A stretch of 31,263 nucleotides of DNA, taken from the IMG/VR virus record IMGVR_UViG_3300031629_001761, positions 1 to 31,263 of that record; one strand, 5' to 3'. Made by a program: the position numbers and the translations under genes. Below are positions 593 through 22,443 of this stretch, one piece after another; position 1 is the first letter of the stretch; every line of letters starts with the position of its first letter. Origin of the DNA: a virus. Below the pieces are notes generated by a model that saw only the letters and a list, made by a program, of their open reading frames with translations, was not told the DNA's origin and searched no databases.

Positions 593-2335
593 TTATGCTC
601 CAAAAGTTGCTCCAGTAGGCATAATTACGAAATCTAGAGAAATAAATTCTGCTGTTTTAGCTGGTTGGATGAAAATCTGACCAATTAATTGATTTCTGTC
701 AATTACGTCTGCTGTGTTGTTAGTGTCGTCCATTACTACTCTAAAAGCATAAAGACCTTGTCTTTGTACTACTGATTCTAAGTAAGGATTCACTGAGCTC
801 AAGAAGCTATTTCTTGTTGCTATAGTATTTTGTTCGAATACTATATTTTTCGCTGCATCTCCTAAGAATTTCTTAAGATCAATTAGCAATCGTCTAACAT
901 TTACTCTATCAAGAGCTGATTTCTTTTTCTGCAATGTTTTTTGACCGAATACTGATATTCCACTTCCAGGGAATGTAGCGATTGGGTTAACGTTAGCTGC
1001 ATATAAAGTATCTCTTTGAGATCTAGTTAATTTTCTTTCTGCTTGGATTACATTAGGAATACCTCCTCTAGTAAGACCTGCTGGTGCAAACCATGGAGCT
1101 GCTGCATTGTCTGTAAATACATATACACCTGGTATAACAACACCTGCTGGTACAAATTCGTTTCTTCCTGTAGCTGAACCTACTTGCAACCAAGGCCAGT
1201 AAGTAGCTGCATAAGAACTGTTAACTGTTCCTGCATTTCCTGCTGCATTAGAGACCATTGATCCGTAAGGACTTAAATCTACTACTGCGATATTGTCTCC
1301 TCTATTAGAAGATAAAGACATCATTGAATCTAACTGTACTTTGTGATCTCCGTAGCTATAAATAAGACCTGGAGCTGATACGATGTTAAATACGTACTCA
1401 TCTTCGTTAGATAAGATTGAAATAGCATCTGCGTAATCTGCTGCATCTAATCCTTGAATGTTAGTAGCGTTTATTTCGCTAAACATTTTGTTAGGTCCGC
1501 TAGACTTCCATAAGTTTCCTGTTGCACCGTGGAAAGATCCAGATGATACAGCTGGAAGTGATCCAGAATAAGCTGCTGTTCTAATATTGATACCATCATT
1601 AGATAAATAATCTAAAGTTGCTCTGTCTACAGATGATACTCTAATGTATCTAGATCTGTTAACATAAGAACCAACTGATGCTAAGTATACTGAAGAACCA
1701 TCGCTTGCTTTAGTCTTATATTGATCACCAATTACTTTAGCAATATATCCTTCTGAGTTAGGATCTAAACTTAAGTCATTAAATGATTCTAATATTGTTT
1801 TTTCTTTTGTACTATCATCTCCTCTACGAACTAGTAAAGAGAAAGTTCCGTTAGCCTTGCTTACGTTTCCGATTTCCCATCTTACATTGTCTGATGTTCC
1901 AGATACTAAAGATCCATCACTGTTTTGTGATCCTGCATCTCCTGCTCCTGTAGAGTTATTGAATAAAGCTCCTTTTCCTAAAGTTGTTAGTGTAAAAGGG
2001 GCTGCTCCTGCATCCGCTGCAGCTATTGTACTGTTACTAGCGCCAGAAAAACTTCCGTCTACTACTCTAGTAATTAATGCCGATGAACCACCTTGTTCAA
2101 AGTAGGATTTAACAGCTATTGAAGTCAAAAATTCTGACTTAGCTGATCCTGATTGAAAAGTTGTTCCAAAAAGTCGTTGGTAAGCACCATATGAGGTTAC
2201 TACAGTTGGTTCTTCAACTGGTCCTAATACTGTTGGTCCTATAAAGGCTGCTCCAGCCGCTAAAGGTGATGGTGCAATAAATGATTTATCCTGCTCGCGT
2301 GATAAAACACCTGGTGAGATTAAAGTTTCTGCCAT
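593..2335 (-). CDS. Tail sheath protein, T4 gp18-like
   Basis: This 580-aa protein is the contractile tail sheath subunit, which surrounds the tube and shortens on infection. The start (ISPGVLSREQDKSFIA, then AAFIGPTVLGPVEEPTVVTS) is the typical sheath N-terminus. The middle is variable and rich in Ser, Gly and Ala (about residues 90-330), as expected for surface-exposed domains. The C-terminal 150 residues hold the conserved sheath core: RRLLIDLKKFLGDAAKNIVF, the FEQN segment and a final FIQPAKTAEFISLDFVIMPT. The length is slightly below T4 gp18 (659 aa). It is the first gene after a 146-bp gap that contains a weak terminator for the preceding operon and a candidate promoter, so it probably heads a two-gene sheath-tube unit. 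No Shine-Dalgarno sequence precedes the ATG (AAGATAAC is closest). Confidence 0.94.
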   Translation of the reverse strand: MAETLISPGVLSREQDKSFIAPSPLAAGAAFIGPTVLGPVEEPTVVTSYGAYQRLFGTTFQSGSAKSEFLTSIAVKSYFEQGGSSALITRVVDGSFSGASNSTIAAADAGAAPFTLTTLGKGALFNNSTGAGDAGSQNSDGSLVSGTSDNVRWEIGNVSKANGTFSLLVRRGDDSTKEKTILESFNDLSLDPNSEGYIAKVIGDQYKTKASDGSSVYLASVGSYVNRSRYIRVSSVDRATLDYLSNDGINIRTAAYSGSLPAVSSGSFHGATGNLWKSSGPNKMFSEINATNIQGLDAADYADAISILSNEDEYVFNIVSAPGLIYSYGDHKVQLDSMMSLSSNRGDNIAVVDLSPYGSMVSNAAGNAGTVNSSYAATYWPWLQVGSATGRNEFVPAGVVIPGVYVFTDNAAAPWFAPAGLTRGGIPNVIQAERKLTRSQRDTLYAANVNPIATFPGSGISVFGQKTLQKKKSALDRVNVRRLLIDLKKFLGDAAKNIVFEQNTIATRNSFLSSVNPYLESVVQRQGLYAFRVVMDDTNNTADVIDRNQLIGQIFIQPAKTAEFISLDFVIMPTGATFGA

Positions 2336-2365
2336 GTTATCTTAAAATTAGATTATTCGTTCTAT

Positions 2366-2374
2366 AATAAATAT
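2366..2374 (-). promoter_or_regulatory. Candidate late promoter of the sheath gene
   Basis: The sense sequence ATATTTATT (8 of 9 matches to ATATTTATA) is preceded by TAACG. Its 5' base lies exactly 39 nt upstream of the first base of the sheath ATG. The same spacing is seen before the nucleotide-sugar dehydrogenase and the tail fibre. A second AT-rich match, with sense TATAAATG resembling the T4 late -10 box TATAAATA, lies at 2419-2426. Confidence 0.5.
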
Positions 2375-2432
2375 CGTTAGTAAATCGAAACAGTTTGATA
2401 TAGTTGCTGTTCTATTAACATTTATAAATAGG

Positions 2433-2452
2433 AAAAGAGGTCCTAAAACCTC
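2433..2452 (-). terminator. Probable weak intrinsic terminator ending the cargo operon
   Basis: On the minus strand a 5-bp stem GAGGT / ACCTC with a TTTAGG loop is followed by TTTTCC. It lies 30 nt after the stop of the 91-aa gene and before the candidate sheath promoter. The short stem and short T run make it weaker than the one at 19-46, but its position fits the end of the long cargo operon. Confidence 0.5.
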
Positions 2453-2481
2453 CCTTCTTTAAATAATATATAAGATCTTTT

Positions 2482-2757
2482 TTATTTTACGGCTGTAAAC
2501 TCTCCGGTTGTAGTATTAACTGTACCTTTACCGTACTTTTCTTCAAGGGCTTTTGCTAATGTAACTTCGCTCTCTTTTAATTGAACTAAGTAATTCTGTG
2601 CTCTTTCTTTACGTTCAGATAAACTTAACTCTGATAAGCTAATTTTACCGAACTCTACTATTACGGCTTCATTGTTACTTTGAATGCTCTTAAGTTGTTT
2701 TATTTCTACATCACTTAATTTTGTTGTAGTTACTTTTGTTGTTTCTTTTTTTGCCAT
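2482..2757 (-). CDS. Small charged helical protein, unknown function
   Basis: This 91-aa protein is one I do not recognise. It begins MAKKETTKVTTTKLSDVEIK, with a Lys/Thr-rich start. A long, highly charged region (about residues 15-75) follows that should be helical and probably coiled-coil, including SLSERKERAQNYLVQLKESE. It ends in a short YGKGTVNTTTGEFTAVK tail. There is no membrane segment or signal peptide. It starts one base after the stop of the upstream glycosyltransferase-like gene, so it is the last gene of the cargo operon, yet it sits next to the tail sheath. A small structural, chaperone or regulatory protein are all possible. It is credible as a gene because of its tight packing and the terminator just downstream. 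Confidence 0.7.
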   Translation of the reverse strand: MAKKETTKVTTTKLSDVEIKQLKSIQSNNEAVIVEFGKISLSELSLSERKERAQNYLVQLKESEVTLAKALEEKYGKGTVNTTTGEFTAVK

Positions 2758-2758
2758 T

Positions 2759-3391
2759 TTATATACAATTAGGAATTTTTAATGTTAAATCTTGAATAAG
2801 TTTAATTTCTTGTTGTTTAATTAATTCTGTCCATAGAATACTTCCTTCATATTGATCTCCATACTTTTTAATTAGTACTTTATCTAGAGAGTAGATATTA
2901 TCTATATACTTATTATACAATATACGAAAAAGTTTCTTAAAAACCAACGGATGTGCAGAAAAAAATCTTTCGTCTATAGTTTCATGCAGAATCCTACCAA
3001 ATATACAGTCACTATATTTAACTCCTTTCAATAAAGGGTAAGTATGTTTGTATGCTTCTTTATAGTATTGTTTGACATTACTATCGAACGCTATACTGTC
3101 TATATCTAAATCTGGTTTACCTTTAATAATTAAATCATATTCTTCTAAGTCTTTGATTAAGTTAACTGCTCTGTATGTAGAATGTAGTATTGAAAATTTT
3201 TTAGGTAGCTCTGAAAGATCTTGTACCTCTATGTTAGTATCCACTCCTCTAAGTTTACCTAGCCATCTTTTATTCTCTTCTGTGTTCCAAGTATGTATAT
3301 ATACGTCACAGTCATTATTATGTATAAACTCTACAATGTTATCTTGTAATTTTTCAATATGGCCTGGTAAGATCAGGGCTATTTTACTCAT
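2759..3391 (-). CDS. Putative glycosyltransferase, 'HTW' family
   Basis: This 210-aa protein has the start typical of a family of short polysaccharide-type glycosyltransferase-like proteins. A beta strand (KIALILPGHIEKL) is followed by a segment ending CDVYIHTWNTE at about residues 28-38. The DVYIHTW signature is the main evidence. A later IKGKPDLDID (about 88-98) has the D-x-D type arrangement that could bind a metal-nucleotide sugar. The C-terminal half is helical and has KIPNCI at its end. Its ATG overlaps the stop of the SGNH gene by 4 nt, indicating translational coupling. Donor and acceptor are unknown, and the family assignment rests on short motifs only. Confidence 0.55.
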   Translation of the reverse strand: MSKIALILPGHIEKLQDNIVEFIHNNDCDVYIHTWNTEENKRWLGKLRGVDTNIEVQDLSELPKKFSILHSTYRAVNLIKDLEEYDLIIKGKPDLDIDSIAFDSNVKQYYKEAYKHTYPLLKGVKYSDCIFGRILHETIDERFFSAHPLVFKKLFRILYNKYIDNIYSLDKVLIKKYGDQYEGSILWTELIKQQEIKLIQDLTLKIPNCI

Positions 3392-4476
3392 AATAGTGTT
3401 CTGGTACTTTTTATACGGAATCTATCTAATACGAAATTATTAAATTTCTTAAGTAGTAAGGTCTTGATATTAAACTCTTCTACACCGTGCTTAGTCCAAG
3501 GAGAATCTAAATGGAATTTTTCGATATAGCTATTATCAAAATAATGTTCTTTGTTTAGTAGATTAGCTGGTTTAATAGCAGTGATATGTTTAGTACACAT
3601 AGGATGATGCTCAAAGTGGATTTCAGCTGGTTTACAATCATCAGAAGATAAGTACATATACGGTTCATGTAGCAGGTTAGGAAGATTGGTAAACCAATTT
3701 TCTATCTGTTCTACATAGTTAATAATTAGAGGTACCTTTATTTCCGTTGTATCTATATTCCATTCTATACCTATCTGTAAACTAATTTCATAATGCTCAA
3801 GGGGGTGTGGATGGTTATCCAAATTTGGTTCCGGTAAAGATCCGTCTCGATTAGGGTAACTACAGTAGACTGAAGGCCATCTTCTTTTGTCTTCTATTCT
3901 TCTCATTTCAATACTCTTATCTAGAAAATAGGGACTGTTGTAAAAGTTTTTTAGTTGAAAAAAAAGATTTGTCTCTTTTACAATAGGATCAAAATTACTA
4001 ATACCAAAATTATGATCTACTGGTTCACCTAAAAAGGTTCCTATCCATGGTTCAAACATATGAATCATTTTCAGGTTAATCTTTTTTTGTTCTGATAATG
4101 CGATTGCACTCTTGATATAGCTTACTAATTCTAATGCAGATTGAAGGGGAGAATGCCCTTTAATTATTTCATCTGGTATTTCTTCTTGACTAGACATAAG
4201 TCCATGTACTGAGTAGTCGCCTGCACTCTCTACTATTCTATCAAATCTACATAGGCTGCTCCATTGAATAATAACTGAATCTCCTTCTTTAATATCATGT
4301 TTTGTGATAGCATGTACAAACGTATTAAAAATAAATTGATTACCTCCGCCACATTTAGCGTAGTTATAACTCTCATCAAAAGTGGCTGCTAAGTAGTCTG
4401 CATATGTCGGCCATAGGTAATTTGTATAGCTACATCCGAATGCAAAAAATCTACTGTTTGAATCTTGTGTTTCCAT
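3388..4476 (-). CDS. SGNH-type hydrolase-like protein with C-terminal extension
   Basis: This 362-aa protein shows SGNH blocks. FAFGCSYTNY at residues 11-20 places Ser16 where the GDS(L) nucleophile sits (GCS instead of GDS). GGGN at 43-46 supplies the oxyanion Gly and Asn. LDNHPHPLEHY has Asp220 and a His (222 or 224) for the catalytic dyad. Such enzymes are often carbohydrate or lipid esterases; here O-deacylation of a glycan is an inference. About 110 residues follow the last block and match nothing I know. I chose the ATG at 4476. A TTG 51 nt upstream (4527) is in frame, but it would add a segment overlapping the dehydrogenase gene and lying before the first beta strand. Even so, 26 nt overlap that gene. 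Confidence 0.7.
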   Translation of the reverse strand: METQDSNSRFFAFGCSYTNYLWPTYADYLAATFDESYNYAKCGGGNQFIFNTFVHAITKHDIKEGDSVIIQWSSLCRFDRIVESAGDYSVHGLMSSQEEIPDEIIKGHSPLQSALELVSYIKSAIALSEQKKINLKMIHMFEPWIGTFLGEPVDHNFGISNFDPIVKETNLFFQLKNFYNSPYFLDKSIEMRRIEDKRRWPSVYCSYPNRDGSLPEPNLDNHPHPLEHYEISLQIGIEWNIDTTEIKVPLIINYVEQIENWFTNLPNLLHEPYMYLSSDDCKPAEIHFEHHPMCTKHITAIKPANLLNKEHYFDNSYIEKFHLDSPWTKHGVEEFNIKTLLLKKFNNFVLDRFRIKSTRTLL

Positions 4477-5629
4477 AATGTATAACTTTGATATCTTTAT
4501 TAGTAGAATAGGATCTCCATGGGTCAACTATAACAGATCCTTCCGGAAAGTCGTAATCATGGTGTTTCCCCATATGTCCTAAAAGGTATACTGCTTTGTA
4601 AGGTTTTGTAGGGTCGTACTCTACTTTATATTTCGAACCATAAGAAGATTCACAGAAATGTCCTGTAAGTATTGATGTTGATCCATCCTCGTAGTTTACA
4701 TCTGGTTTATATGCTTTACCTAATATAACGATAGGTAAGTTTACTTTATTAGATTCTATTACTAATCGTTGTGCTAAGTTCTTAGCTTGTTTCTCTCTAG
4801 CATTCATTATAGCATCAAATAGATCGTAACCTACATCTAACTTTTCAGCCATATACCGTAAAGCAATATTATCTCTTGGATGACATCCTCCACCGTCTCC
4901 CATTCCTGCTTTCATATAAGTCGGACCTAGTATCCTTTGAGTTGATCTTTCTAATGCTCCTGTAATAACGTCTACATTAATATTACCTGATTTCTCAGCA
5001 ACGTCCTGTATCATATTAACTAAGGCTACTTTAGTAGAGATAAAGGTATTGTAGAATATCTTTATACCTTCTGCTTCGTCCCAAGTACCTAATTCATATC
5101 TAGTGCCTTCAGTAATAAACGTTTCGTAAAATTCCAATAGTAATTTAGCATCTCCTGTTGTAGAACCGTCTTCTGTTCCTATAATAATCATTTCCGGATT
5201 AACCATGTCCCATTTTACTGTTCCCATTGCTATTAAGTAGGGGTTATAAATAAACCTTCCATTAGGTATTAAGTCAATAAATTCTCTACGGATTGTACCT
5301 GGTAGAACTGTTGATATTAATACTATGAGTTGGTCTTTAGAGACGTATTTGTTTGTTTCTTCGAGTACCTCTTTAACTATATTATAATTAAAATCTTTAT
5401 TAGGTAAATGAGCAGTAGGGTATCTACCGTCATAGTCTGGGTGATGAGGTGTTGGAACAGCGATAAAAATTATTTCTCTTCCTTTGCAGGCTTCTTCTAT
5501 TGAAGCTACCATTTTAAAATTTTCTGGCTCTATGTTGCTAACGTCGTAACCAACTATATCATGCTTTTCAGCCATAACTTCAGCTGCCTCTTTTCCGAGC
5601 TTGCCTACTCCTATAAATCCTATTTTCAT
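4451..5629 (-). CDS. UDP-glucose/GDP-mannose dehydrogenase family protein
   Basis: This 392-aa enzyme should oxidise a nucleotide sugar at C6 to the uronic acid with two NAD+. The N-terminal Rossmann fold shows GFIGVGKLG (residues 4-12) and the acidic end of strand 2 at GYDVS. The NAD domain continues with IAVPTPHH (56-63) and STVLPGTIRR (106-115). The central domain has IKIFYNTFISTKVALVNM (189-206), matching the family's catalytic Asn and Lys stretch. The nucleophile is Cys249 in GMGDGGGCHPRD (242-253); the family form is G-G-S-C-F-P-K-D, so Cys and Asp are kept with variant neighbours. The C-terminal domain keeps ILGKAYKPDVNYEDGS. It is somewhat shorter than bacterial Ugd (about 390-450 aa). 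A 59-bp gap with a candidate promoter precedes it, so it may start its own transcript. The substrate is not certain. Confidence 0.88.
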   Translation of the reverse strand: MKIGFIGVGKLGKEAAEVMAEKHDIVGYDVSNIEPENFKMVASIEEACKGREIIFIAVPTPHHPDYDGRYPTAHLPNKDFNYNIVKEVLEETNKYVSKDQLIVLISTVLPGTIRREFIDLIPNGRFIYNPYLIAMGTVKWDMVNPEMIIIGTEDGSTTGDAKLLLEFYETFITEGTRYELGTWDEAEGIKIFYNTFISTKVALVNMIQDVAEKSGNINVDVITGALERSTQRILGPTYMKAGMGDGGGCHPRDNIALRYMAEKLDVGYDLFDAIMNAREKQAKNLAQRLVIESNKVNLPIVILGKAYKPDVNYEDGSTSILTGHFCESSYGSKYKVEYDPTKPYKAVYLLGHMGKHHDYDFPEGSVIVDPWRSYSTNKDIKVIHYGNTRFKQ

Positions 5630-10927: not shown

Positions 10928-11932
10928 TTATTTTTTCCAAAAACTATACAATCCTTTATCTATTTCGTAACTATCCCAAACAAATCTTTCTCTATTTGGT
11001 TGCTTCTTAGCCCAATTCCACATTTTTTCTAAACCTTCATATAAGTCTGTCTTATATTCATATCCAAGAATATCAATAGATTTTTGATATGAGGGGTAAG
11101 CGTCTTTAACTTCATGTCTACCTTCTAAGTACTCAACTGTACCGTTTTTAATAACGTCTCTCAGAATTGCGTTTGCTTCATTTATAGAGTGAAACTTTGT
11201 ACCGCCGAGGTTAATTGTTTCGCAACAAGCTTCTTTTAGTGTTGCGGCTTTCCATAATGGTTCCAAACAGTCATCTATAAAAGAGAAAGCTCTAGTCTGG
11301 GTTCCGTCACCAAATATTGTCATTGGTAAATCATTAATGTATTGGTACATCCAAATTCCTAATACATTTCTATATTTATCCCATATGTTTTGCCCTGTAC
11401 CGAATACATTATGTGGTCTGATAATGCAGTACTCTAATCCATGTTGATCGTGAGCTACTTTTATATCCATTTCACAAGCGTATTTAGCAATACCGTAAGG
11501 GTCTATTGGTGAAGGTATATCAGACTCTTCAAAGGGTCTTTTTCCTTCCCATCCGTGTCCATATACAGCCATAGATGAAGTAAAGACTAATCTTTTTACA
11601 TCGTGAATTATACATTCATTTACTATTGCAGCTGTTGCTATAGTATTATTAGTATAGTTGTATTTTCTTATAAAAGGAGATAAACCTTCTGCTGCATAGG
11701 CTGCAAAATGAAATACATATTCTGGTTTATGGTATTCAAATATACCTGTTAGGTCTTCTTTTGCTATATCAGTTTCATAGAAAATGATTCTCTTGTCTAT
11801 ATTTTCTCTATAACCTCCTGAAAGGTTATCGATTCCAACTACTGTGTATTCTGGTTTATTATCTAAAATCCATTTAGCTAACCTACTACCTAATAGCCCT
11901 GCAACACCAGTTATTACTATTTTTTTGTCCAT
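10928..11932 (-). CDS. NAD-dependent sugar epimerase/dehydratase, GalE-like
   Basis: This 334-aa member of the extended short-chain dehydrogenase family has a Rossmann motif TGVAGLLG with Gly9, Gly12 and Gly15. An acidic strand end at GIDNLSGG (33-40) indicates NAD(H). FHFAAYA is at 74-80, and the catalytic set is TSSMAVYG (118-125) with Tyr146 and Lys150 in DPYGIAKYACE. Sequence and length fit UDP-glucose 4-epimerase and related nucleotide-sugar epimerases or dehydratases; the exact substrate cannot be read off. GDGTQTRAFSFIDDC (about 208-222) is the conserved C-terminal domain feature of this family. Its start overlaps the upstream oxygenase-like gene by 16 nt. It would supply a donor for the neighbouring transferases. 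Confidence 0.88.
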   Translation of the reverse strand: MDKKIVITGVAGLLGSRLAKWILDNKPEYTVVGIDNLSGGYRENIDKRIIFYETDIAKEDLTGIFEYHKPEYVFHFAAYAAEGLSPFIRKYNYTNNTIATAAIVNECIIHDVKRLVFTSSMAVYGHGWEGKRPFEESDIPSPIDPYGIAKYACEMDIKVAHDQHGLEYCIIRPHNVFGTGQNIWDKYRNVLGIWMYQYINDLPMTIFGDGTQTRAFSFIDDCLEPLWKAATLKEACCETINLGGTKFHSINEANAILRDVIKNGTVEYLEGRHEVKDAYPSYQKSIDILGYEYKTDLYEGLEKMWNWAKKQPNRERFVWDSYEIDKGLYSFWKK

Positions 11933-12437: not shown

Positions 12438-13448
12438 TTAATCTCTTACCATATCAGCAGTGCAGCAATGAAAAGAACCTCCTAATGTTCTGGAGTGTCT
12501 TATATTTAAGTCCAAAGCTTCAATCTTATATTTTTTAAGTTGCTTAATTAATTCTGTTTGTCTATTATCTACACATACTGTATTTTCGTCTAACGAAATA
12601 AGATTTATTCCTACCCATTCTGATGCTCTTAGTACTCCTTTGTATCCTATATCTACCATTGGTGCTGCATATATAATATCCCACCCTTTAAAGAGTTTTG
12701 GCATATTCTTTTCGTTAATTCTAGATGGATTAACTAATGCTAGTCCGTCTCTTAGAATGGCAATTGTAGAATCTATATGAGAATAGGAATACATATTTTC
12801 TAAGTAGTGTACATTGTATTTATCTCCTAATATATTTTTTAACCAGGTATGTCCTTTTTTATTACCTGTATTAGAGTTTAAATACAGAATGTCGTCGTTA
12901 TGTCTTAGTATATTTGCTGCATCAAAGACAGGTTCAACATTAGTTAATGTTAAATCCTTTAAATTAGTTCTTTGGTAAGAATCATCTGTTAATCTTGGTT
13001 TAGGTGCACATATCCATTTAGATCCTTTGTCATTATATTTTATAAAAAGGTCCCTATAAGCATCCGTTTCAAACTGTCTGGATCTTAACGTCATAGGTGA
13101 TTCTATAAGGGTATCTCCTATTACTGTCATAGTATCTCTAGGACAAAAGGTATAGTATTGATCTGTCTCCCAATATCCGTTAGATACGGTCTTAGTAGTA
13201 TCTATTATATCAGGTCTGTGTACTATAGCTCCAAAATCCTGCAAAGCTTTTGTTAATAGGTCAAGATCTTCTATAGACTCTTCATAAACTTTAGGATCAA
13301 AGAATCCTAATTCCTTAGAAGGTATATTATCTTTGTCCGCATAGTTAATAGCATGGAGATCAAAACCATGTCTAGGCATATTTGCATTGTCGACTCTTCC
13401 GACAATTACTTCTCTTAATTTACCGTATTCATTTTTTACATTAACCAT
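12438..13448 (-). CDS. Amidinotransferase, glycine/inosamine-phosphate amidinotransferase-like
   Basis: This 336-aa enzyme should move an amidino group from arginine to an amine, giving a guanidino product and ornithine. It matches the glycine amidinotransferase/StrB family. The start is NEYGKLREVIVG. CPRDTMTVIGDTLIESPMTL (102-121) is followed by RSRQFETDAYRDLF. EPVFDAANILR has Asp176, SHIDSTIAILRDGLALVNP has His224 and Asp226, and GGSFHCCTAD at the end has Cys328 (or 329). These correspond to the Asp-His-Cys catalytic set. Length is in the normal range (340-420 aa in cellular enzymes). Its start overlaps the short DegT-type aminotransferase gene by 8 nt. That pairing, an amine made and then amidinated, resembles streptidine biosynthesis. 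Arginine deiminase is a less likely alternative because the PRD...ESPM...RSRxFE block is amidinotransferase-like. Confidence 0.85.
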   Translation of the reverse strand: MVNVKNEYGKLREVIVGRVDNANMPRHGFDLHAINYADKDNIPSKELGFFDPKVYEESIEDLDLLTKALQDFGAIVHRPDIIDTTKTVSNGYWETDQYYTFCPRDTMTVIGDTLIESPMTLRSRQFETDAYRDLFIKYNDKGSKWICAPKPRLTDDSYQRTNLKDLTLTNVEPVFDAANILRHNDDILYLNSNTGNKKGHTWLKNILGDKYNVHYLENMYSYSHIDSTIAILRDGLALVNPSRINEKNMPKLFKGWDIIYAAPMVDIGYKGVLRASEWVGINLISLDENTVCVDNRQTELIKQLKKYKIEALDLNIRHSRTLGGSFHCCTADMVRD

Positions 13449-14040
13449 TTGAAAATACTTTATAGTTTGTTAAATCTGGGTAGTTCTTATATGACCACTC
13501 TTTAGGTTTAGTTGCTACTGCATCAGGTATTTTATGAATACCCATTAGAGCAGTTTCAGGAGTCATATAATAATGATACCCTGCTGTATTAATTTCTTGT
13601 TTATCCCAAGGTAGTGGAGATTTAATATCTCTACCATCGTAAGACATTCTCCTTAGTTCATCTGCTGCTTCTTCATTATCAGTTAAGATCATCCCTCCTC
13701 TTCCTAAGTTCAAATGCTTCTTAAATTGAAAACTTAGTACCATAAAGGTCCTATCAATATACGAACTTTCTTTCCAATACACTGCTGAATCTATAATATT
13801 TTCAGTTATATAGTAATAATCGTACCAATTTTCATCTTTCCAGGTTAGTTCTAAGGTTAATTTACTAGCTAACATAGGAATAGATAGATACGTATGTTTT
13901 GGTACCTCAATTTTTTTAGCTTTTGTGTATCTGAGAGCTAATTCTAAACCATGAGTACAACAGTCTACTGCTACTGCAAATGGAGCTCCATAATGACGAG
14001 CTATTTGTGATTCGAATATGTTTACAGTTGCAAATCCCAT
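13441..14040 (-). CDS. Short DegT/DnrJ/EryC1-type PLP aminotransferase
   Basis: This 199-aa protein matches the large PLP-binding domain of sugar aminotransferases of the DegT family. FAVAVDCCTHGLELALRY (21-38) corresponds to the phosphate-binding GT-(S/H)-A-L region, and VPKHTYLSIPMLASKL is the next strand and helix. IIDSAVYW has Asp84 for the pyridine nitrogen. LSFQFKKHLNLGRGGMILTD has Lys108 at the Schiff-base position. YHYYMTPETALMGIHKIP is the N-Y-R-M-like motif. Cellular members have about 370 residues, so the C-terminal small domain is missing. The gene is not broken: it ends cleanly 8 nt into the next gene and starts immediately after the fucosyltransferase-like gene. It may be a minimal, possibly dimer-complemented enzyme making an amino sugar, or a non-catalytic PLP protein. 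Confidence 0.75.
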   Translation of the reverse strand: MGFATVNIFESQIARHYGAPFAVAVDCCTHGLELALRYTKAKKIEVPKHTYLSIPMLASKLTLELTWKDENWYDYYYITENIIDSAVYWKESSYIDRTFMVLSFQFKKHLNLGRGGMILTDNEEAADELRRMSYDGRDIKSPLPWDKQEINTAGYHYYMTPETALMGIHKIPDAVATKPKEWSYKNYPDLTNYKVFSNG

Positions 14041-15080
14041 TAGTTAAGTTTTGATATACAATTAAATGCATGTTTTATGTTAACGAGTATTTTGTCTATA
14101 GGGTCAGTAATGTGGTAAGTTAGTAGGTCTGTGCTATATGCTGCTACCAAAGTCCAAGTTGATACCGGATGTCCTAATATAATTTTACAAGTTCTTAATG
14201 CTGATTGATCTATTACTGTTTCTAGACCTGTTCTTTCTAAGTTAGTAGATTCGTATAAGTGAGTACTGTGTATGTATTTAGGTATATGCTTATAAAAATC
14301 ATCTCTAGTAAATACTTTAGTGCCTTCAGGTAATAGATCTGTAATCTTCTTAAGTTCTATAGTAGGTAGATCAGTAGAGATATAAAACTGTGCTTTTGGT
14401 CTTTCTGCTATGATGTCCTGAAGCAACCTAGTAACTTTTCTATCATTTACATACTTGTATATAGAATCTTTTGATCTGGGATTATTCTGGTTTAATAAAT
14501 CATTATCCTGTAATGTTTCACTAAACTCTAACATTTCTTTTTTAGATTTAAATACTCCTGATCCTCTTCTCAAATGCACTCCTATAGTGTTAGTTCCAAG
14601 TACTTTCAAAAAACTTTTTCTAAATGTTGGATCTATAACTTTTATTTCTCTACTTCCTTTACGTGTTTTATATTTAGTGTCTTCGAGTACTAAATCTACT
14701 TTGCTCCAATCGAATGCTGTATAGTAGTCAATATTATTTTTAAGCGTATCAGTTTTTCCGTCTAATATGTCATCAACCATTTTATTTGTAATAGGTAGAA
14801 GTTTTGTCCACTTCTCTTTATGGTGATCAAAATCCCATTTAGCTATTTTGCTTTGAATTTCAGAATCAGTATGCCATATCTGCCAGGTCTTCATACCCGG
14901 AAAGTCTAGAAATTTCTTTTCATGCCAAAAGTGCTGTTCTACTTCTGTATCATGGTCTGTACCGCAAATCATTTGTAATTTATATACTGTTTCCCAATGT
15001 TGTATTCTATTTCCATATCCTGTATCAAACTCATGGTGCCCACCTCCCCATGGTTCTAGTACTCTTATTTTATAATGCAA
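14040..15080 (-). CDS. Fucosyltransferase-like glycosyltransferase (NodZ/POFUT-type)
   Basis: This 346-aa protein has three blocks of the alpha-1,6/O-fucosyltransferase-like superfamily. GYGNRIQHW (21-29) resembles the N-terminal G-x-G-N-x motif. IGVHLRRGSGVF (166-177) has the GDP-binding H-x-R-R-G core. FYISTD (232-237) is followed by IILGHPVSTWTLVAAYS (300-316), matching the family's final S-(T/S)-(W/F) segment. A GDP-sugar transferase is therefore likely; fucose itself is not proven. The start codon is TTG at 15078-15080: the first in-frame ATG (residue 37) lies beyond the GYGNR block, and TTG follows the upstream stop by 2 nt. Its stop overlaps the aminotransferase ATG by one base. Confidence 0.72.
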   Translation of the reverse strand: MHYKIRVLEPWGGGHHEFDTGYGNRIQHWETVYKLQMICGTDHDTEVEQHFWHEKKFLDFPGMKTWQIWHTDSEIQSKIAKWDFDHHKEKWTKLLPITNKMVDDILDGKTDTLKNNIDYYTAFDWSKVDLVLEDTKYKTRKGSREIKVIDPTFRKSFLKVLGTNTIGVHLRRGSGVFKSKKEMLEFSETLQDNDLLNQNNPRSKDSIYKYVNDRKVTRLLQDIIAERPKAQFYISTDLPTIELKKITDLLPEGTKVFTRDDFYKHIPKYIHSTHLYESTNLERTGLETVIDQSALRTCKIILGHPVSTWTLVAAYSTDLLTYHITDPIDKILVNIKHAFNCISKLN

Positions 15081-15082
15081 GT

Positions 15083-16648
15083 CTATATAATTTTAGTCCA
15101 TTTAGATTTTTTCTTCTCCACATCCGGTGCATATTCGCCTGCCGGGTCAGCCTTCTTCTTCTTAATGTTTACACTTTTCCATTTAGTTTTAATTTCATGT
15201 TTAGGTTTATCTATATCTGGTTGGTACTCGCCTGATTCAAAATGAGTAATTGCTCCGTTATTAACTTTTACCTGTGGTATATTTTTATCTACTTCGATAG
15301 AGTCGTACCATTCTACCAGTTCTGGGAATGTTTCTCTAAAGTTAAGGTTTTTTCTTACATCGTATTGTTCATAGAAACTTTTAAAGTCATGATAATGTTT
15401 AGTTTTATCTTCTTCTGTACTTGTATGTCCTTGCTCTACTACGTCTACATATTTAATCAACCTTTCGATTTGAGCTTTTTCATGATCCATCATTAATGGA
15501 TGGTCTTTTTTACCCTCATACCATGTTGATAACTTCTTATATACCTTAACTTTTTCAGAATCAACTAGATTTAATGGTGATTGAAATGCTGGCCATCTTA
15601 ATATATTTAAGTCAATACCAGGTGAGTTCATTCCATATTTTTCTTTAAGAGAAAACATATCATCCATAAATTCAGTAATAGAATAGAGACATAGACTGTT
15701 AATAGTCATCATACATATAACTTGATTGTAATCTGCTTCTTCTATAAACTTAACTAAATTAGCTCTCCATTGATCGTAATCTAATCCTGATCTAATATAG
15801 TTTGCTGCTGGTCCATAAGCTTCACAACTGGTATATAAATCAAAACCTTTAATATCTATGTCCTTTGTAGTGTCTATAAGCTTTTGTATAAGCTTAGGAT
15901 GTACCATAAGGTTAGAATTTACTGCTAAAGTTAAGTCTGGAGCTGGGTGCTCTTTAACTGTCTCTAAGAATTTCCAAAAGTTATGAGATGCAGATGGCTC
16001 TCCTCCTGTAACTCTTAATTCTTGTAGGTGTTTTGATAATTCTGGCCACCATTCAACAAAAGCTTGAACGTATGGATTATTGTCATTATATTTACCAAAT
16101 AAGTCTGCCCATGACCCATCGGCATGATATGCTCCTGCAGAGGTAGTTTTAAAATCTTGGTAAGGTCCGTTTGTTTCAATATCTTTAGCCCAAGTTGTTG
16201 AGTACCCAGCATTACAGTATGAACAAGCTAAATTACAGGTCCTATCAAAAGATACTTCTACTGTTTTTAACATAATATCAGCATCCCAAGGTGCATTAGC
16301 TGCATCTTCTATTTCTTGGTCTGTATATATTCTACTTTTGAAGATTCTATCTCCTGCTGTATTAGGGTCAATGTCTTCTACTTTCCAGCAATAAGAACAT
16401 TCTGCTGGTCGAACACCTTCAAGCATCATTTTTCTTATCTTCTTTTTAAACTGAGTATTATGAAGTGCTGATGGATTTTTTTTAATCTCTTCTAAGTCAA
16501 TCGGGTGCGGTAAAGGTAAGTGACATGAATTAGTGTACCCGTGACCTAAGTGGAGACTGGCATTGTACCATTTAGCTGCACAAAAACTTTTACTTACTGA
16601 GTCTAGGTGATCAGCTTTCCACTTTATTAATTTATCTGTATCTGACAT
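15083..16648 (-). CDS. Radical SAM protein with N-terminal cysteine cluster (twitch type)
   Basis: This 521-aa protein has the radical SAM iron-sulphur motif CNLACSYCNAGYSTTW with Cys138, Cys142 and Cys145. That is followed by RVTGGEPSASHNFW, the G-G-E-P SAM-binding motif. The 90 residues before it hold Cys23 (SFCAAKW), Cys42 (NSCHLPLPH), Cys84 and Cys87 (ECSYCWKVED). These four could ligate an auxiliary cluster, as in radical SAM families with a twitch-like extension placed N-terminally. The last 70 residues are Lys-rich and look unstructured (KKKKADPAGEY). The reaction is unknown; peptide or sugar modification are both plausible. It starts one nt after the LamG-like gene and is a paralogue of the protein at 17214-18593. 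Confidence 0.85.
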   Translation of the reverse strand: MSDTDKLIKWKADHLDSVSKSFCAAKWYNASLHLGHGYTNSCHLPLPHPIDLEEIKKNPSALHNTQFKKKIRKMMLEGVRPAECSYCWKVEDIDPNTAGDRIFKSRIYTDQEIEDAANAPWDADIMLKTVEVSFDRTCNLACSYCNAGYSTTWAKDIETNGPYQDFKTTSAGAYHADGSWADLFGKYNDNNPYVQAFVEWWPELSKHLQELRVTGGEPSASHNFWKFLETVKEHPAPDLTLAVNSNLMVHPKLIQKLIDTTKDIDIKGFDLYTSCEAYGPAANYIRSGLDYDQWRANLVKFIEEADYNQVICMMTINSLCLYSITEFMDDMFSLKEKYGMNSPGIDLNILRWPAFQSPLNLVDSEKVKVYKKLSTWYEGKKDHPLMMDHEKAQIERLIKYVDVVEQGHTSTEEDKTKHYHDFKSFYEQYDVRKNLNFRETFPELVEWYDSIEVDKNIPQVKVNNGAITHFESGEYQPDIDKPKHEIKTKWKSVNIKKKKADPAGEYAPDVEKKKSKWTKII

Positions 16649-17236
16649 TTATATTTTATTTATGAAATTACAATTACCTGTTATGTCTACTGATTTATCG
16701 AATATAAATTCTTCGAATAAATGATGACAAAGCAGATTACCGTCTTGCTCTATTTTAAATTCTTGTAACGAAATGTCAGTGTAGTTGAGATTAAAACCGT
16801 TTTTAGGAAAATTACCTGCTCCAAAAATAATATGAGGATTATCTTCGATTGCAAAACCTTTTTCAGTTAGATCCAGACTAAGAACTAATCGTTGACTTAT
16901 AAATATTTCAATTTTCTCTTTTGCTACGTGTTCTATACGAACTTTTAATTGAACTCCATCAAATATCGGATGAGGTAGTTCATCGTAGTTCGTTTCTCCT
17001 AGTTTATTCATTAAAGTAAACAGTAGTCTACCTTCGTATATGTCTAATGCTGTATAGTGTGGTAGAAGGGTAAACAGCGTACCTATCACACCTTCTACTT
17101 TATTAACTATCATATTAATAGACAGTACAAAGTTGTTCTCTCCTGTTAATTGTTTTGTTGCTGGATTCTCAGGAAATGTATCACATATATGGTTTGGCCA
17201 TAAGACCCATGGATTACCCTCTTTTATGTTTAGCAT
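16649..17236 (-). CDS. LamG/concanavalin-like beta-sandwich protein
   Basis: This 195-aa protein is mostly predicted beta strand. From about residue 32 it follows the pattern of LamG-type lectin-like domains: NNFVLSINMIVNKVEGVIGT, then TALDIYEGRLLFTLMNK, then LKVRIEHVAKEKIEIFISQR, then a FGAGNFPKNGFNLNYTDISL segment. That last part resembles the closing strands of LamG domains that describe an element of the sandwich. No catalytic residues can be named. It sits between two radical SAM genes, overlapping the upstream one by 23 nt. LamG modules are also fused to the two galactosyltransferase-like proteins upstream, so a glycan-binding or scaffold role in this pathway is likely but inferred. Confidence 0.6.
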   Translation of the reverse strand: MLNIKEGNPWVLWPNHICDTFPENPATKQLTGENNFVLSINMIVNKVEGVIGTLFTLLPHYTALDIYEGRLLFTLMNKLGETNYDELPHPIFDGVQLKVRIEHVAKEKIEIFISQRLVLSLDLTEKGFAIEDNPHIIFGAGNFPKNGFNLNYTDISLQEFKIEQDGNLLCHHLFEEFIFDKSVDITGNCNFINKI

Positions 17237-18593
17237 AGAATTCTTTTAGTTCTGGAAATGTTTCTTGAAAGTTTGTACCTCGTCTTTCGTCTAATTGGTC
17301 TACAAAGGTTACAAATTCCTTCCTAAATTTATCTACGCTAAACATACTCTTGCCAATTGCGTAGTCATAGATTCTTTTTATCTTTTGTATTTCAACATTT
17401 GAAAAGCCGTAATTATCTTGATGATACTCTTTCATACCATAATATAGTGCTTTTTTGGCAGAATTCAAAATTAATTCCTTATCTTTATCCTCTAATATTT
17501 TAACAGATAAATGTGATGGCCACCTAAGGTAGGAAGTATCTAATGATACTGCTGATATTTTATATCTTTTACCGTTATGATGTTTCTTTTTCATCTCAAA
17601 TATTCTATCTAGTAAGTGATCGTATGAAAATACTGATAGGGCATTAAAGGTAGCCATAATATTGATCGTAACTTTAGGTAACTCTGTAAGTATCTTGTCT
17701 ACATTTTCCCAAAACTTCTCATAATCTAAACCGAATCTTGTATATTCTGCTTGTGCTCCTTTTGCTTCTACAGATGTATATACTACAAACTCTTTAACCT
17801 TGTCTTGGTCAGTAATTATCTTAGCTTTAGCAATAAACTTATCTATTAATGCGTCAGGTACTCCTAAGTTGGTGTTTATACCAATCGAAAGTTTAGTATT
17901 AGGATTTTCTTCTTCTATAATATAATCTAGTACTTTAAAGGTATCTTTTGATAATAAAGGTTCTCCTCCTGTAATACGGAACGTATGTAGATCTCTATAT
18001 AATGAAGGCCACCATTTCCACCATGCTTCAACATAGGGATTATACTCTGATTGTAGCAATGGCATTTCATTTTTCTTTCGTAATGTTTCGATCTCATTAA
18101 ATTGTCCGTCTGCTGCTTTGTATGGTCCGTGTTTTTCTATTTCTTGTACCCAAGTAGATGAGTACTGAGGTCCGCAGTAAGCACATTTAAAATTGCATGT
18201 ATTAGAAAAAGACACTTCTACATACTTTGGATTAATATCATCTCTCCAATTGGATTTTGCAATTTGATCGAATTGACCTATTGACCACTCTTCAGAAGAC
18301 TTAAATACTCTATCAGAAAATGAGTTAGAATTATCTTCTACACTCCAACAGTAGTTGCATTCATCAGGTTTACCTCCCTCTAACATTTCCTTACGTTTTA
18401 ATTTCTTAAAACGGGTATTATGTAGTGCAGATGGATTCCTTTTAATCTCTGCTATAGAAATTTTATGAGGAGTAGGGTGGTGACATGAATGTGTCATCCC
18501 GAGTCCTAGATGTATAGTAACTTGTGTCCATTTTGCTAAACAAAATCCACATCCTACTTTATCTAATTTATCTTTTACTTGTTGTGAATTCAT
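17214..18593 (-). CDS. Radical SAM protein with N-terminal cysteine cluster (twitch type), paralogue
   Basis: This 459-aa protein has radical SAM cysteines 133, 137 and 140 in CNFKCAYCGPQYSSTW and the SAM motif RITGGEPLLS. The N-terminal region repeats the arrangement of its neighbour: CGFCLAKW (Cys15, Cys18), HSCHHPTPH (Cys37), and ECNYCWSVED (Cys79, Cys82). NPSALHNTRFKKLKRKEMLE is shared almost word for word with the 521-aa protein. It ends in the same FQETFPELKEFY segment but lacks the Lys-rich tail. The pair is therefore an old duplication that has kept every cysteine, which argues for two active enzymes, perhaps acting in sequence or as a heterodimer. Substrate unknown. It overlaps the galactosyltransferase-LamG gene by 4 nt. 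Confidence 0.85.
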   Translation of the reverse strand: MNSQQVKDKLDKVGCGFCLAKWTQVTIHLGLGMTHSCHHPTPHKISIAEIKRNPSALHNTRFKKLKRKEMLEGGKPDECNYCWSVEDNSNSFSDRVFKSSEEWSIGQFDQIAKSNWRDDINPKYVEVSFSNTCNFKCAYCGPQYSSTWVQEIEKHGPYKAADGQFNEIETLRKKNEMPLLQSEYNPYVEAWWKWWPSLYRDLHTFRITGGEPLLSKDTFKVLDYIIEEENPNTKLSIGINTNLGVPDALIDKFIAKAKIITDQDKVKEFVVYTSVEAKGAQAEYTRFGLDYEKFWENVDKILTELPKVTINIMATFNALSVFSYDHLLDRIFEMKKKHHNGKRYKISAVSLDTSYLRWPSHLSVKILEDKDKELILNSAKKALYYGMKEYHQDNYGFSNVEIQKIKRIYDYAIGKSMFSVDKFRKEFVTFVDQLDERRGTNFQETFPELKEFYAKHKRG

Positions 18594-20002
18594 AGTTTAA
18601 TGTTTATCATCTTCGCCCAAGGAGTAAGTACGTCTTCTCCTAATAATTCATAATTCACTTGTTTTATTCCGTCTTGCTTATAATCTATTTTACCGTTTTG
18701 CATTTGTAATACATAACGTTTTTCATTCTCTGCTGTCGTTTCTCCTTTAACAAATTTACCTCCTATTATGCCTTCATCTTCATGTGGTAAACATCTAAAT
18801 CTACCTTCCCTTCTAAAAGGTAAAATTGAGTTTGGAATTTCTATATCTTCTATTATAGTTTCGGTAGCATAATCATCAACCTTATCATGGTCTGGGTTAT
18901 TAAAGTCTAAATTTATTTTAAGTTCATCTTGAGGTATATTGTTATGTAGGTCTGCAACCTCTTCTGGTCTTAAGTCTCTTCCCCAAGCAAATACTTTTGC
19001 TATATCTCCTTTGAAGTACTTAATAGTGCTTTCATCTTTTTCAGAAGGAGTAGTACCTAAGTACCAATCTGCTGATCCATACCCTTTCAATTTACCTTGC
19101 CATTTATAAGGCGATGGACTTCCAATTCCACCTCTAGAATCTACTTCACTGCCGTTTAAGTACATATGAGAGAGTTGCTCTCTATTAGAGAATACCATTG
19201 TTACCCAACTCCATTGTTCATCGTACCTCTTTACCCACATATAGTTATGTTGGTTAAACGAGTTCCAATATGTAGCTGATATAGCTCTAGAATTATTAAA
19301 TCCTATACCGTAATCATACCCTGGTATTCTTAGAACTGGGTATTCTACATATTTTCTGTCTTTCTGACCGATTAAGAATATAGGGTTCTTTTCAGGTTGC
19401 TGACGGGGTCTCATCAATACTGATATAGTGTGACTTTTAGAAGTTAGCCCTCTTAATTTTCTTTCAAAAGGAATTTTAATGAAAGAATTATTTCCGTTAA
19501 ATCTCCTATAAGTTTGTTCTTGAGGAGTTTTAGTTATAAAAGTATTATTAGTAAGCCCTTCTTCATGGCATCGCCAAAATAAATCATCATCTTCCATACC
19601 CCAATCCCAATAATTATTAGAATATCCGTTTGTTTTCTCTAAATGCTCTTTAGTAAATACAACTGCACCTCCAAAATATTCATGATATTTAAGTTGGTAA
19701 TTCATTTGTGATATCTTAGTAGCAATATGTCTTGGTCCTTCTGTAGGGTAAGAGTAATCTGCTCCTTGTTCTGGTATCATGTCTATATCATGAAACACTA
19801 CATAGTCGCATCCTTCTTCAAAAGCTACTTTAGCTGCAATATTCTTAGTAGCTCCTCTATTAAAAAGCTTATCGTCAGCTTGATGACAAAAGTACATATG
19901 AAATTCTATGCCCTGTTCTTTTAAGTACTTACCTGTTTTAGGTATGAACTCATTTAGATGTTCTTCTCTATTACGGTAAGGTACACATACTCCTAGTTTC
20001 AT
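18590..20002 (-). CDS. Beta-1,4-galactosyltransferase-like (GT7) fused to LamG
   Basis: This 470-aa protein starts with a GT-A domain carrying all signatures of the beta-1,4-galactosyltransferase family. These are VPYRNREEHL (7-16), FNRGATKNIA (47-56), FHDIDMIPE with the D-x-D at 72-74, YFGGAVVFTKEHL (109-121) and NGYSNNYWDWGMEDDDLFWR (125-144). From about residue 168 a LamG-like sandwich begins (RFNGNNSFIKIPF) and ends with VFAWGRDLRPEEVADLHNN near 360. A further C-terminal domain (FRREGRFRCLPHEDEGIIGG to the end) is shared with its neighbour. The N-terminal half should transfer a hexose such as galactose to a glycan, and the LamG part may hold the acceptor. Gene order and 4-nt overlaps on both sides place it in the same operon. 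Confidence 0.85.
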   Translation of the reverse strand: MKLGVCVPYRNREEHLNEFIPKTGKYLKEQGIEFHMYFCHQADDKLFNRGATKNIAAKVAFEEGCDYVVFHDIDMIPEQGADYSYPTEGPRHIATKISQMNYQLKYHEYFGGAVVFTKEHLEKTNGYSNNYWDWGMEDDDLFWRCHEEGLTNNTFITKTPQEQTYRRFNGNNSFIKIPFERKLRGLTSKSHTISVLMRPRQQPEKNPIFLIGQKDRKYVEYPVLRIPGYDYGIGFNNSRAISATYWNSFNQHNYMWVKRYDEQWSWVTMVFSNREQLSHMYLNGSEVDSRGGIGSPSPYKWQGKLKGYGSADWYLGTTPSEKDESTIKYFKGDIAKVFAWGRDLRPEEVADLHNNIPQDELKINLDFNNPDHDKVDDYATETIIEDIEIPNSILPFRREGRFRCLPHEDEGIIGGKFVKGETTAENEKRYVLQMQNGKIDYKQDGIKQVNYELLGEDVLTPWAKMINIKL

Positions 20003-21399
20003 AATTTTACTGTTAAGTGGTGAAAATTAGCTACATCAATTATACTGTGTACCTTGTATTTTAAAGTGTTGATTCCATCTTCTGTTGTATCTCTATACCC
20101 TCGTTTAACTTCATTCATAAACCTAAGTTGATTATACCTTGTTGTAATATCTTTCCAACCGGTGTTTAGAAACCCATTTTCACCATGTTCTAGTTGTCTA
20201 TATTTTGATGTTCTTCTAAATGGAATAGATATAAAGTCTGTTATATCCTCCTTGTATGGCACTATTTCAACGTCATTTAATTCTCCTAAAATATGATCTT
20301 TACCTAAGTCTACTACTTTGTAATCTTTTATAGTTAAAGGTACAAAGTTATGTTGTAAATTTTGTTGGCTCTTGTACGAACCAAATTGCATACCCAATGG
20401 AACTCCTTTATTAGTAGCAACAGAATGTACTTCTTTCTGTGAAAGAGGTGAATTCCATATAGCTACTTGCTGTATTCTACCTTTAAAGAAATGTTCTTCT
20501 CCTTTACGTGCAGGGAATGAAGCTCCAATATACGAGTGTTTTTGAGACTGGTAATTTCTTAAACCTGTAGGAATAATCTTAGAGCATTCTTTTATTCCAT
20601 TAAAGTACAAAGTAAGTTCTTTTAACTCAGTATCCCAGGTTACTGTTATATTAGACTGTAATGGTGGTTTAACTTTCGTATTTAAGTAGTGATGGTTTCT
20701 TTCTGAGTCAAATAATTCAACGGTAAATCTACCAAAACTAGTGTACATTATATTGAAATCATATCCAGGTATACCAAATATAGTAAAATTATCTTTGTCT
20801 TTTAGGTGGTCATACGTTATCTCTTCTGGTTGAGCTGTTACTGTAATCGAAAAATCACCTCTAGTCCTAAGCTTATTAGGAACTTTAATATATGCTGAAT
20901 TACCGTTAAACTTAAAAGCTGAGGTATTACCGGAAGCTGCTTTGTAAGGTATTGTATCTAATTTAAGTCCGTTTAGTCTTGCTCTAAAAAGTAGATCATC
21001 ATCTTCGAAACCCCATCCCCAGTATTCATTAGAAAACCCATTAATACTTATAAAATCATTAATAGGAAATAATGTAATACCTCCGAAGTATTCAGGGAAC
21101 GGTAAATTCTGTGTAGCTAAATGTATAGGGTATTTTGAATATTTATAATCTACGTCAGTAGGGAGCATATCAATATCATGCAATACTATGTATTCACATT
21201 CTAACTCTTTAGCTTTAAGTACACCTATATTTAATAACTTCCCTCTATTGAAAATCTTTTCATTGTCTTGTTCTACAATAACTAGTTCGTAAGGTATCTC
21301 TTGTTGAGATAATGCATAATGTATAGCTGTCTTAAACTTAAAGAGCTGTTCGTACCTATCTCTATATGGTACAATAACTCCTAGTTTAGGTTTACTCAT
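19999..21399 (-). CDS. Beta-1,4-galactosyltransferase-like (GT7) fused to LamG, paralogue
   Basis: This 466-aa protein has the same architecture as the 470-aa neighbour. The GT7-type domain has IVPYRDRYEQL, FNRGKLLNIG (50-59), LHDIDMLP (D-x-D at 75-77), YFGGITLFP (104-112) and GFSNEYWGWGFEDDDLLFR (121-139). It keeps W-G-W-G, which is even closer to the animal beta-1,4-galactosyltransferase motif than the neighbour's W-D-W-G. The LamG-like part runs from KFNGNSAYIKVPN (about 163) to VAIWNSPLSQKEVHSVA (about 330). The C-terminal domain starts at FRRTSKYRQLEHGENGFL. Sequences differ throughout, so the duplication is old and the two may add different sugars. Its start overlaps the 70-aa gene by 8 nt. 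Confidence 0.84.
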   Translation of the reverse strand: MSKPKLGVIVPYRDRYEQLFKFKTAIHYALSQQEIPYELVIVEQDNEKIFNRGKLLNIGVLKAKELECEYIVLHDIDMLPTDVDYKYSKYPIHLATQNLPFPEYFGGITLFPINDFISINGFSNEYWGWGFEDDDLLFRARLNGLKLDTIPYKAASGNTSAFKFNGNSAYIKVPNKLRTRGDFSITVTAQPEEITYDHLKDKDNFTIFGIPGYDFNIMYTSFGRFTVELFDSERNHHYLNTKVKPPLQSNITVTWDTELKELTLYFNGIKECSKIIPTGLRNYQSQKHSYIGASFPARKGEEHFFKGRIQQVAIWNSPLSQKEVHSVATNKGVPLGMQFGSYKSQQNLQHNFVPLTIKDYKVVDLGKDHILGELNDVEIVPYKEDITDFISIPFRRTSKYRQLEHGENGFLNTGWKDITTRYNQLRFMNEVKRGYRDTTEDGINTLKYKVHSIIDVANFHHLTVKL

Positions 21400-21604
21400 C
21401 TACATTCTCTGCTTTAGTTAGGTTAGTATGCCATTCAGCTAAATAGAATTGAAGTCTATCTCCCCATTCGTCTTTATCTATTTCTTCAAACCACACAGTA
21501 AGTGCATCTAAACTCATTGCGATTTTTTCTAAGGCTTTAACTTTTCTTTCTTCTTGTATAACTTTTTCTTGAGCTATAACTTGTTCTTGTGTTTCCTTAC
21601 TCAT
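21392..21604 (-). CDS. Small acidic helical protein, unknown function
   Basis: This 70-aa protein is one I do not recognise. Residues 1-40 are charged and Glu/Lys/Gln-rich (MSKETQEQVIAQEKVIQEER), so they are likely a helix or coiled coil. The second half has LTVWFEEIDKDEWGDRLQFY, an acidic amphipathic region with several tryptophans. No signal peptide or membrane segment is present. It overlaps the galactosyltransferase-like gene by 8 nt and the upstream GT2-like gene by 4 nt, so it is translated as part of the operon. A helper or dimerisation factor for one of the flanking transferases is a reasonable guess, not more. Confidence 0.6.
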   Translation of the reverse strand: MSKETQEQVIAQEKVIQEERKVKALEKIAMSLDALTVWFEEIDKDEWGDRLQFYLAEWHTNLTKAENVDE

Positions 21605-22443
21605 ATCTTAACTATTAATTTACGTAATTTATCCCAGTGTTTATAATCTATATAATCAATATACGAACTTTCAGTTAAATTATCAACTAAAAATTCAGGT
21701 TTTTCAATGTCAATTTTCCAATCACTGCGTGCTATTGCTCTATACATTTTACTGTATTCTTTAGAAAATGCATATTCTTGTTTAATATCTGCTACTTCTT
21801 GTATTCTACTTAGACACGTACTATCCCACTTAAAGTGGTGTACCTGAGTGAATACTTCTTCTATAGGCATTCTCTTAGGATGTGAATCTCCCCAGCTATT
21901 AGTACCGTCTTTAAATTGAGCATAATGCTGTCCAGATGTAACATCTTGATATCCTTTCATTAATGTACATTTATTGGGACATGCTCCAGACATCGGATAT
22001 CTAAAGAAACCTGCTAAAGGAAAAGCTTCGTTAATATTAGTATCTCTCGTAACTAAGGGGAAAGTACCATTAGTACCTACTCTATCTATGAACCCACCTG
22101 TGACAAAGTCATAACCATGTCTCTCACACTTCTCTATGATGTCTTCAATCGGTTCTGGGTATACTTGTAATTCATCATCATCTGATACTATCCACCAGTC
22201 GTTTGGGCGTTGGTTTTTTACATAATTATAGAGCTCTGTTACTCTTTCCCAGTTGTACTTATCTTCTGTTACAACTAAATAAGGTTTTATCCCTAGTTCT
22301 TGTATTTCCTCTAAAATACCGTCATCTTCTGATGATCTATAAACTACTATATATGCTTTTTCAATATCGCGTTCATAGTGCTTTAACATATGGGGTAACA
22401 TATGTGTATTTTTGCCGACTACTGTAACTAAGTTAGGTTTCAT
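21601..22443 (-). CDS. GT-A glycosyltransferase, family 2/92-like
   Basis: This 280-aa protein opens with a strand-helix pair, NLVTVVGKNTHMLPHMLKHY, typical of GT2/GT92-like enzymes. It continues with AYIVVYRSSEDDGILEEI and has the metal-binding acidic motif WWIVSDDDELQVYP (83-96, DDDE at 88-91). A later VHHFKWDSTCLSRI (about 217-230) matches the W/H-containing acceptor-side motif often seen in GT92-like proteins. A nucleotide-sugar transferase is therefore likely; donor and acceptor are not known. It overlaps the methyltransferase gene by 4 nt and the 70-aa gene by 4 nt. Confidence 0.75.
   Translation of the reverse strand: MKPNLVTVVGKNTHMLPHMLKHYERDIEKAYIVVYRSSEDDGILEEIQELGIKPYLVVTEDKYNWERVTELYNYVKNQRPNDWWIVSDDDELQVYPEPIEDIIEKCERHGYDFVTGGFIDRVGTNGTFPLVTRDTNINEAFPLAGFFRYPMSGACPNKCTLMKGYQDVTSGQHYAQFKDGTNSWGDSHPKRMPIEEVFTQVHHFKWDSTCLSRIQEVADIKQEYAFSKEYSKMYRAIARSDWKIDIEKPEFLVDNLTESSYIDYIDYKHWDKLRKLIVKI

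Follow-up and report, generated by a model that had tools for sequence, protein, structure and literature searches.

We found that a 31,263-bp virus record, analysed over its whole length (hereafter the window), carries a StrB-type L-arginine amidinotransferase (AT) paired with a minimal, half-size DegT-type protein (hDegT) in a phage glycan operon. We put at roughly 60% the probability that these two genes form the core of a glycan-modification operon that makes and attaches a guanidino sugar. In the proposed pathway a ketone would be formed on a sugar or cyclitol, hDegT would exchange that ketone for an amine in a PLP-dependent reaction, and AT would transfer an amidino group from L-arginine to the amine, producing the guanidino sugar and ornithine; neighbouring glycosyltransferases would then join the guanidino sugar to a glycan that is either made by the phage or present on the host. 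The first-pass annotation of this DNA had proposed that a guanidinylated sugar is made, and this remains the best reading because the aminotransferase and the amidinotransferase recur together as an operon set among sugar genes. The enzyme families, intact active sites and operon linkage can be read directly from alignments and loci, and from them we infer that AT acts on the product of hDegT, that this acceptor is a sugar and that the guanidino sugar is attached. The place of attachment could with equal likelihood be the virion or the host envelope.

Every gene of at least 150 aa in the window lies on the minus strand. Tail tube and sheath genes occupy one end, the sheath being closest among cultured phages to that of Flavobacterium phage immuto (59% identity), and the other end carries a tail fibre of 1749 aa that includes an S74 chaperone domain. 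Between the sheath and tail-fibre ends lies a run of sugar genes (Table 1) comprising GT7, GT2, two radical SAM and fucosyltransferase-like genes, and continuing through hDegT, AT, a 2OG oxygenase and an epimerase to several unassigned proteins, a GDSL protein and a nucleotide-sugar dehydrogenase. The 8-nt overlap between hDegT and AT given in the first-pass annotation is exact, and the oxygenase and epimerase that it placed next do follow directly after AT. In close relatives the fucosyltransferase-like gene keeps its position upstream of hDegT. The two radical SAM genes and the 195-aa protein encoded between them (15083-18593) are likewise kept as a trio in close relatives, and the GT7/laminin-G-like fusions stand in tandem as two copies (18590-21399).

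Table 1. Features of the window, with coordinates, strand and the evidence for each assignment.
Feature	Coordinates	Strand	Evidence
hDegT, half-size DegT/DnrJ/EryC1/StrS-type PLP protein, 199 aa	13441..14040	-	Pfam, AF2, Foldseek, invariant Asp84/Ser103/Lys108
AT, StrB-type L-arginine amidinotransferase, 336 aa	12438..13448	-	StrB1 1bwd match, trees, Asp176/His224/Cys328
hDegT stop / AT start overlap, 8 nt	13441..13448	-	AT ATG = 13448-13446
Small 2OG-Fe(II) oxygenase, 172 aa	11917..12435	-	HxD...H...R motif, AF2, Foldseek
NAD-dependent sugar epimerase/dehydratase (GalE-like SDR)	10928..11932	-	PF01370 E 1.4e-42; GalE 6.5e-32
Probable fucosyltransferase-like glycosyltransferase	14040..15080	-	HLRRG motif read directly; without Pfam match
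Twitch-domain radical SAM protein	15083..16648	-	NF033640 302 bits
Second twitch-domain radical SAM protein	17214..18593	-	NF033640 334 bits
GT7-type galactosyltransferase + fused laminin-G-like domain	18590..20002	-	
GT7-type galactosyltransferase + fused laminin-G-like domain	19999..21399	-	
Family-2 glycosyltransferase	21601..22443	-	PF13704 5.6e-07
Nucleotide-sugar dehydrogenase, UDP-glucose/GDP-mannose DH family	4451..5629	-	TIGR03026 7.4e-41; PF00984

AT is an intact amidinotransferase of the StrB1 type. Its nearest solved relative is StrB1 (1bwd; 303 bits, E 1.8e-89, 44% identity over the full length), compared to 171-179 bits each for AGAT, HsvA and SxtG. The catalytic residues named in the first-pass annotation (Asp176, His224 and Cys328) align with AGAT Asp254, His303 and Cys407 in a GGxFHCxTxD context, and the triad is present in 84/84 viral rows. 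The arginine-binding residues D170, D305, R322 and S355 of AGAT correspond to D105, D226, R243 and S276 in AT, and Asp105, Asp176, His224, Asp226, Arg243 and Cys328 are invariant across the 84 viral rows. In trees rooted on one AGAT sequence (human), phage ATs cluster with StrB-type enzymes from bacteria, outside the Streptomyces group containing StrB1; SxtG, HsvA and CyrA are absent from the tree, SxtG and HsvA being compared by score only. An arginine deiminase or DDAH identity, the former named at first pass as one that would refute the proposal, was rejected: there was no Pfam match at E<0.1, all PDB matches were amidinotransferases, and the dimethylargininase score was weak (18.6 versus a cut-off of 300). 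Phage ATs form two lineages, and an AU test of one single phage clade (p=0.33) neither rejected nor proved it. Two segments shared with StrB1, WETD and APKPRLTDDSY, are kept in the lineage of the window AT and shortened in other phage ATs.

More distant amidinotransferase-like genes occur in other phages. The cultured Synechococcus phage S-SCSM2R encodes a second, divergent copy (L001:8354-9247, GGLHCMT) beside KdsA, KdsB and 2OG oxygenases, and copies of 24-29% identity are found in Campylobacter phage CP220 (L002:11995-13056) and an Enterococcus phage record (L005:4310-5269). The CP220 copy keeps the triad and the Enterococcus phage copy has Glu in place of Asp; the conserved arginine-site Arg and Ser are both absent from these two copies in the alignment used.

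The DegT-type assignment made at first pass, with Asp84 and Lys108, was borne out, Lys108 aligning with ArnB Lys188, and to it we add the half size of the protein. hDegT passes the Pfam DegT model (59.2 bits versus a cut-off of 19.8) at about 199 aa, compared to 360-390 aa for enzymes such as GDP-perosamine synthase, ArnB and AHBA synthase, and the half-size genes of AT-bearing phages cover only positions ~11-109 and 163-244 of the 360-position profile. hDegT therefore lacks two parts of the DegT fold, its C-terminal third and a piece of the middle. The AF2 model is a confident compact fold consisting of the PLP domain only (pLDDT 92, pTM 0.90), and in Foldseek searches, at a query TM of about 0.6-0.76, it superimposes on the PLP domains found in GDP-perosamine synthase, ArnB and AHBA synthase. 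Asp84, Ser103 and Lys108 are invariant across 146 aligned hDegT sequences, all of similar length, IMG/VR holds at least 561 viral relatives, and all but one of 16 AT-bearing phage records contain no DegT other than the half-size protein. A plasmid search returned partial matches only, to genes annotated as DegT-family aminotransferases.

By these comparisons hDegT is a stable phage family and not a broken gene. The number of relatives and the invariant residues rule out a pseudogene, and a split DegT with its C-terminal half next door was rejected on two grounds: the adjoining gene is most often AT, 2OG or GDP-mannose 4,6-dehydratase (gmd), and length is similar across the 146 sequences. With part of the fold absent, hDegT might instead be a remnant or a regulatory PLP-binding protein and not an aminotransferase, leaving AT to act on a host amine, but the size of the viral family, the invariant residues, the confident predicted fold and the pairing with gmd described below make this improbable. 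The data rather suggest a sugar aminotransferase able to work without the C-terminal domain, which would, to our knowledge, be the smallest sugar aminotransferase.

We then analysed the best 80 of 225 viral AT loci, a sample of best matches that includes many near-identical loci on fragmentary contigs, and found hDegT at 73 of the 80, in every case within 3 kb upstream of AT and in the same orientation. An arrangement this regular is not chance, and in six of the seven loci without hDegT no more than 3.3 kb separates the AT start from the end of the contig. By a recount of gene calls, hDegT and AT are direct neighbours in 21 loci and are separated by one gene, often 2OG, in 34. A small 2OG gene lies within 4 kb of 65/80 AT-linked hDegT genes compared to 1/69 other hDegT genes, and close relatives of the window without this 2OG have an SDR of ~290-303 aa in its place, directly after AT. 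The HxD...H...R motif is found in 74/74 relatives of the window 2OG, whose AF2 model (pLDDT 92) matches 2OG dioxygenases in Foldseek. Other neighbours of AT include GT25 proteins, a 16-member NodU-like carbamoyltransferase cluster and phrog_2835 glucosyltransferases, the last in two clusters of 35 and 17 members. Because AT association switches only ~3 times across the hDegT tree, these locus counts are not independent events, and independent AT-2OG and AT-gmd pairs were too few for a test. At one locus (L124) the AT is of the window type but the hDegT belongs to the gmd clade. Among bacterial StrB-type ATs, a full-length DegT lies within 10 kb in 20/80 loci, mostly from Actinomycetota; in one Lentisphaerota sequence (L239:9719 onward) the StrB-type amidinotransferase overlaps or closely precedes a full-length DegT.

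A flap beside the catalytic His reads YSYS in the window AT, YSYM in most viral relatives, PNPM in AGAT and YAST in StrB1, and this flap influences acceptor choice in AGAT and CyrA (PMC4887976, PMC3684758). Because YSY[M/S]H is invariant among viral ATs and variable among bacterial ATs, the acceptor side suggests a single dedicated acceptor. Alternatively, AT could supply the virocell with a free small guanidino metabolite (for example guanidinoacetate or a guanidino-polyamine), the hDegT of the operon serving a sugar pathway of its own. Use of more than one amine is common among AGAT-family enzymes (PMC4887976, PMC3684758), and the creatine-pathway gene GAMT is virus-enriched in a marine virus survey (PMC11360552). 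However, AT is far closer to StrB1 than to AGAT, the same-strand hDegT genes at those 73 loci are accompanied by glycosyltransferases, and at the glycine-site positions of AGAT Asn300 and Met302 viral ATs have Ser and Ser/Met (S221 and S223 in the window), so that we consider a free metabolite unlikely. The loss of Asn300 and Met302 is not decisive against glycine use, since CyrA is without both and uses glycine (PMC4887976, PMC3684758).

Copies of hDegT without AT point to the kind of substrate. Around these genes gmd lies within 4 kb in 54/69 loci, immediately downstream in 50, together with formyltransferase, hexapeptide acyltransferase and glycosyltransferase genes. The combination of gmd, aminotransferase and acyltransferase genes follows the logic of GDP-perosamine formation and subsequent N-acylation, and this neighbourhood points to a GDP-perosamine-like role; because AT-less copies adjoin gmd so often, hDegT probably makes amino sugars. 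In contrast, gmd was found within 4 kb of 0/80 AT-linked hDegT genes, and elsewhere in the 16 AT-phage records searches for it gave only weak SDR matches (23-43% identity). The two groups also differ at residue 187 (Tyr in AT-linked versus Trp in gmd-linked copies) and residue 146 (mostly Ala in AT-linked copies, Asp in the window, versus Arg in gmd-linked copies), consistent with different substrates. Since AT-linked hDegT genes have 2OG or SDR where others have gmd, we speculate that the ketone in AT operons comes from 2OG, or from SDR in some relatives. At a single AT locus (L087) the gene directly upstream is gmd; this fragment, without hDegT, carries a sporadic-carbohydrate-cluster 2OG protein, a cupin, gmd and AT in a run (787-4218). 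A UDP-Ara4N route (ugd, ArnA-like decarboxylase, ArnB) is not favoured: by score the window epimerase is a GalE, and its SSMAVYG stands in place of the STSEVYG of ArnA.

The first-pass annotation had drawn a parallel with streptidine biosynthesis, of which the pairing of a StrB-type AT with a DegT-family protein stands; the DegT is half-size and not full-length and StsC-like, and Gfo/Idh/MocA dehydrogenases were found in 0/16 AT-bearing phage records, many of them incomplete, compared to 14/14 positive controls. An inositol route was set aside on this count, although the host could possibly provide the inositol dehydrogenase. It is accordingly improbable that AT yields a streptidine- or bluensidine-like guanidino cyclitol as in aminoglycoside clusters, even with StrB1 as its nearest solved relative and the 16-member carbamoyltransferase cluster flanking it (carbamoyl cyclitols are found in bluensomycin); the gmd pairing of hDegT relatives also points to hexoses, and phage ATs fall outside the Streptomyces StrB group. 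The earlier interpretation is thus partly supported and plausible in its core.

Against the guanidino-sugar reading we counted the phylogenetic clustering of the linkage, the third of the usual fold missing from hDegT, and the examined AT-linked phages being without a close gmd or Gfo/Idh/MocA gene. As a tentative and more specific proposal, 2OG or SDR, hDegT and AT might together convert a sugar hydroxyl to a guanidino group, placing cationic sugars on virions or phage-remodelled host envelopes, with hDegT as a separate phage family.

Aminoglycosides, streptomycin among them, are a known source of guanidino sugars, and we found no paper on phage-made guanidino sugars in the open-access literature. 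The hDegT-AT gene set, linked to sugar-attaching enzymes, is carried by many aquatic phages; judging from their genes, these viruses probably produce an unusual sugar with a positive charge and attach it. If so, this sugar could alter receptor binding, superinfection, grazing or phage adhesion. The viral hDegT family offers a directly testable putative sugar aminotransferase free of the C-terminal domain, and with S-SCSM2R cultured on Synechococcus WH7803, both the guanidino-sugar and the hDegT questions can be tested now.

Compared to StrB1, the L-arginine:inosamine-phosphate amidinotransferase of streptomycin biosynthesis, the window AT has the same catalytic triad and arginine site but a different flap and a place in the tree outside the Streptomyces group, and the phage pathway pairs it with a half-size DegT, with inositol dehydrogenase not found in 16 records. 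GDP-perosamine synthase, ArnB and AHBA synthase have the PLP domain fold and the catalytic Lys and Asp in common with hDegT, whereas hDegT is without their C-terminal domain and its AT-linked copies are without a gmd partner. The LPS gene clusters of cyanophages P-SSM2, S-SSM7 and S-SM2, whose function is debated, are phage-borne surface-sugar genes as in the window, and the passages describing them name no amidinotransferase (PMC3037559, PMC2984593). S-SCSM2R carries, in genes 305-310, an hDegT and an AT that are 53% and 44% identical to those of the window, their annotations going no further than AHBA synthase and inosamine amidinotransferase, in a run of hDegT, radical SAM, glycosyltransferase, 2OG, AT and glycosyltransferase genes whose order differs from that of the window.
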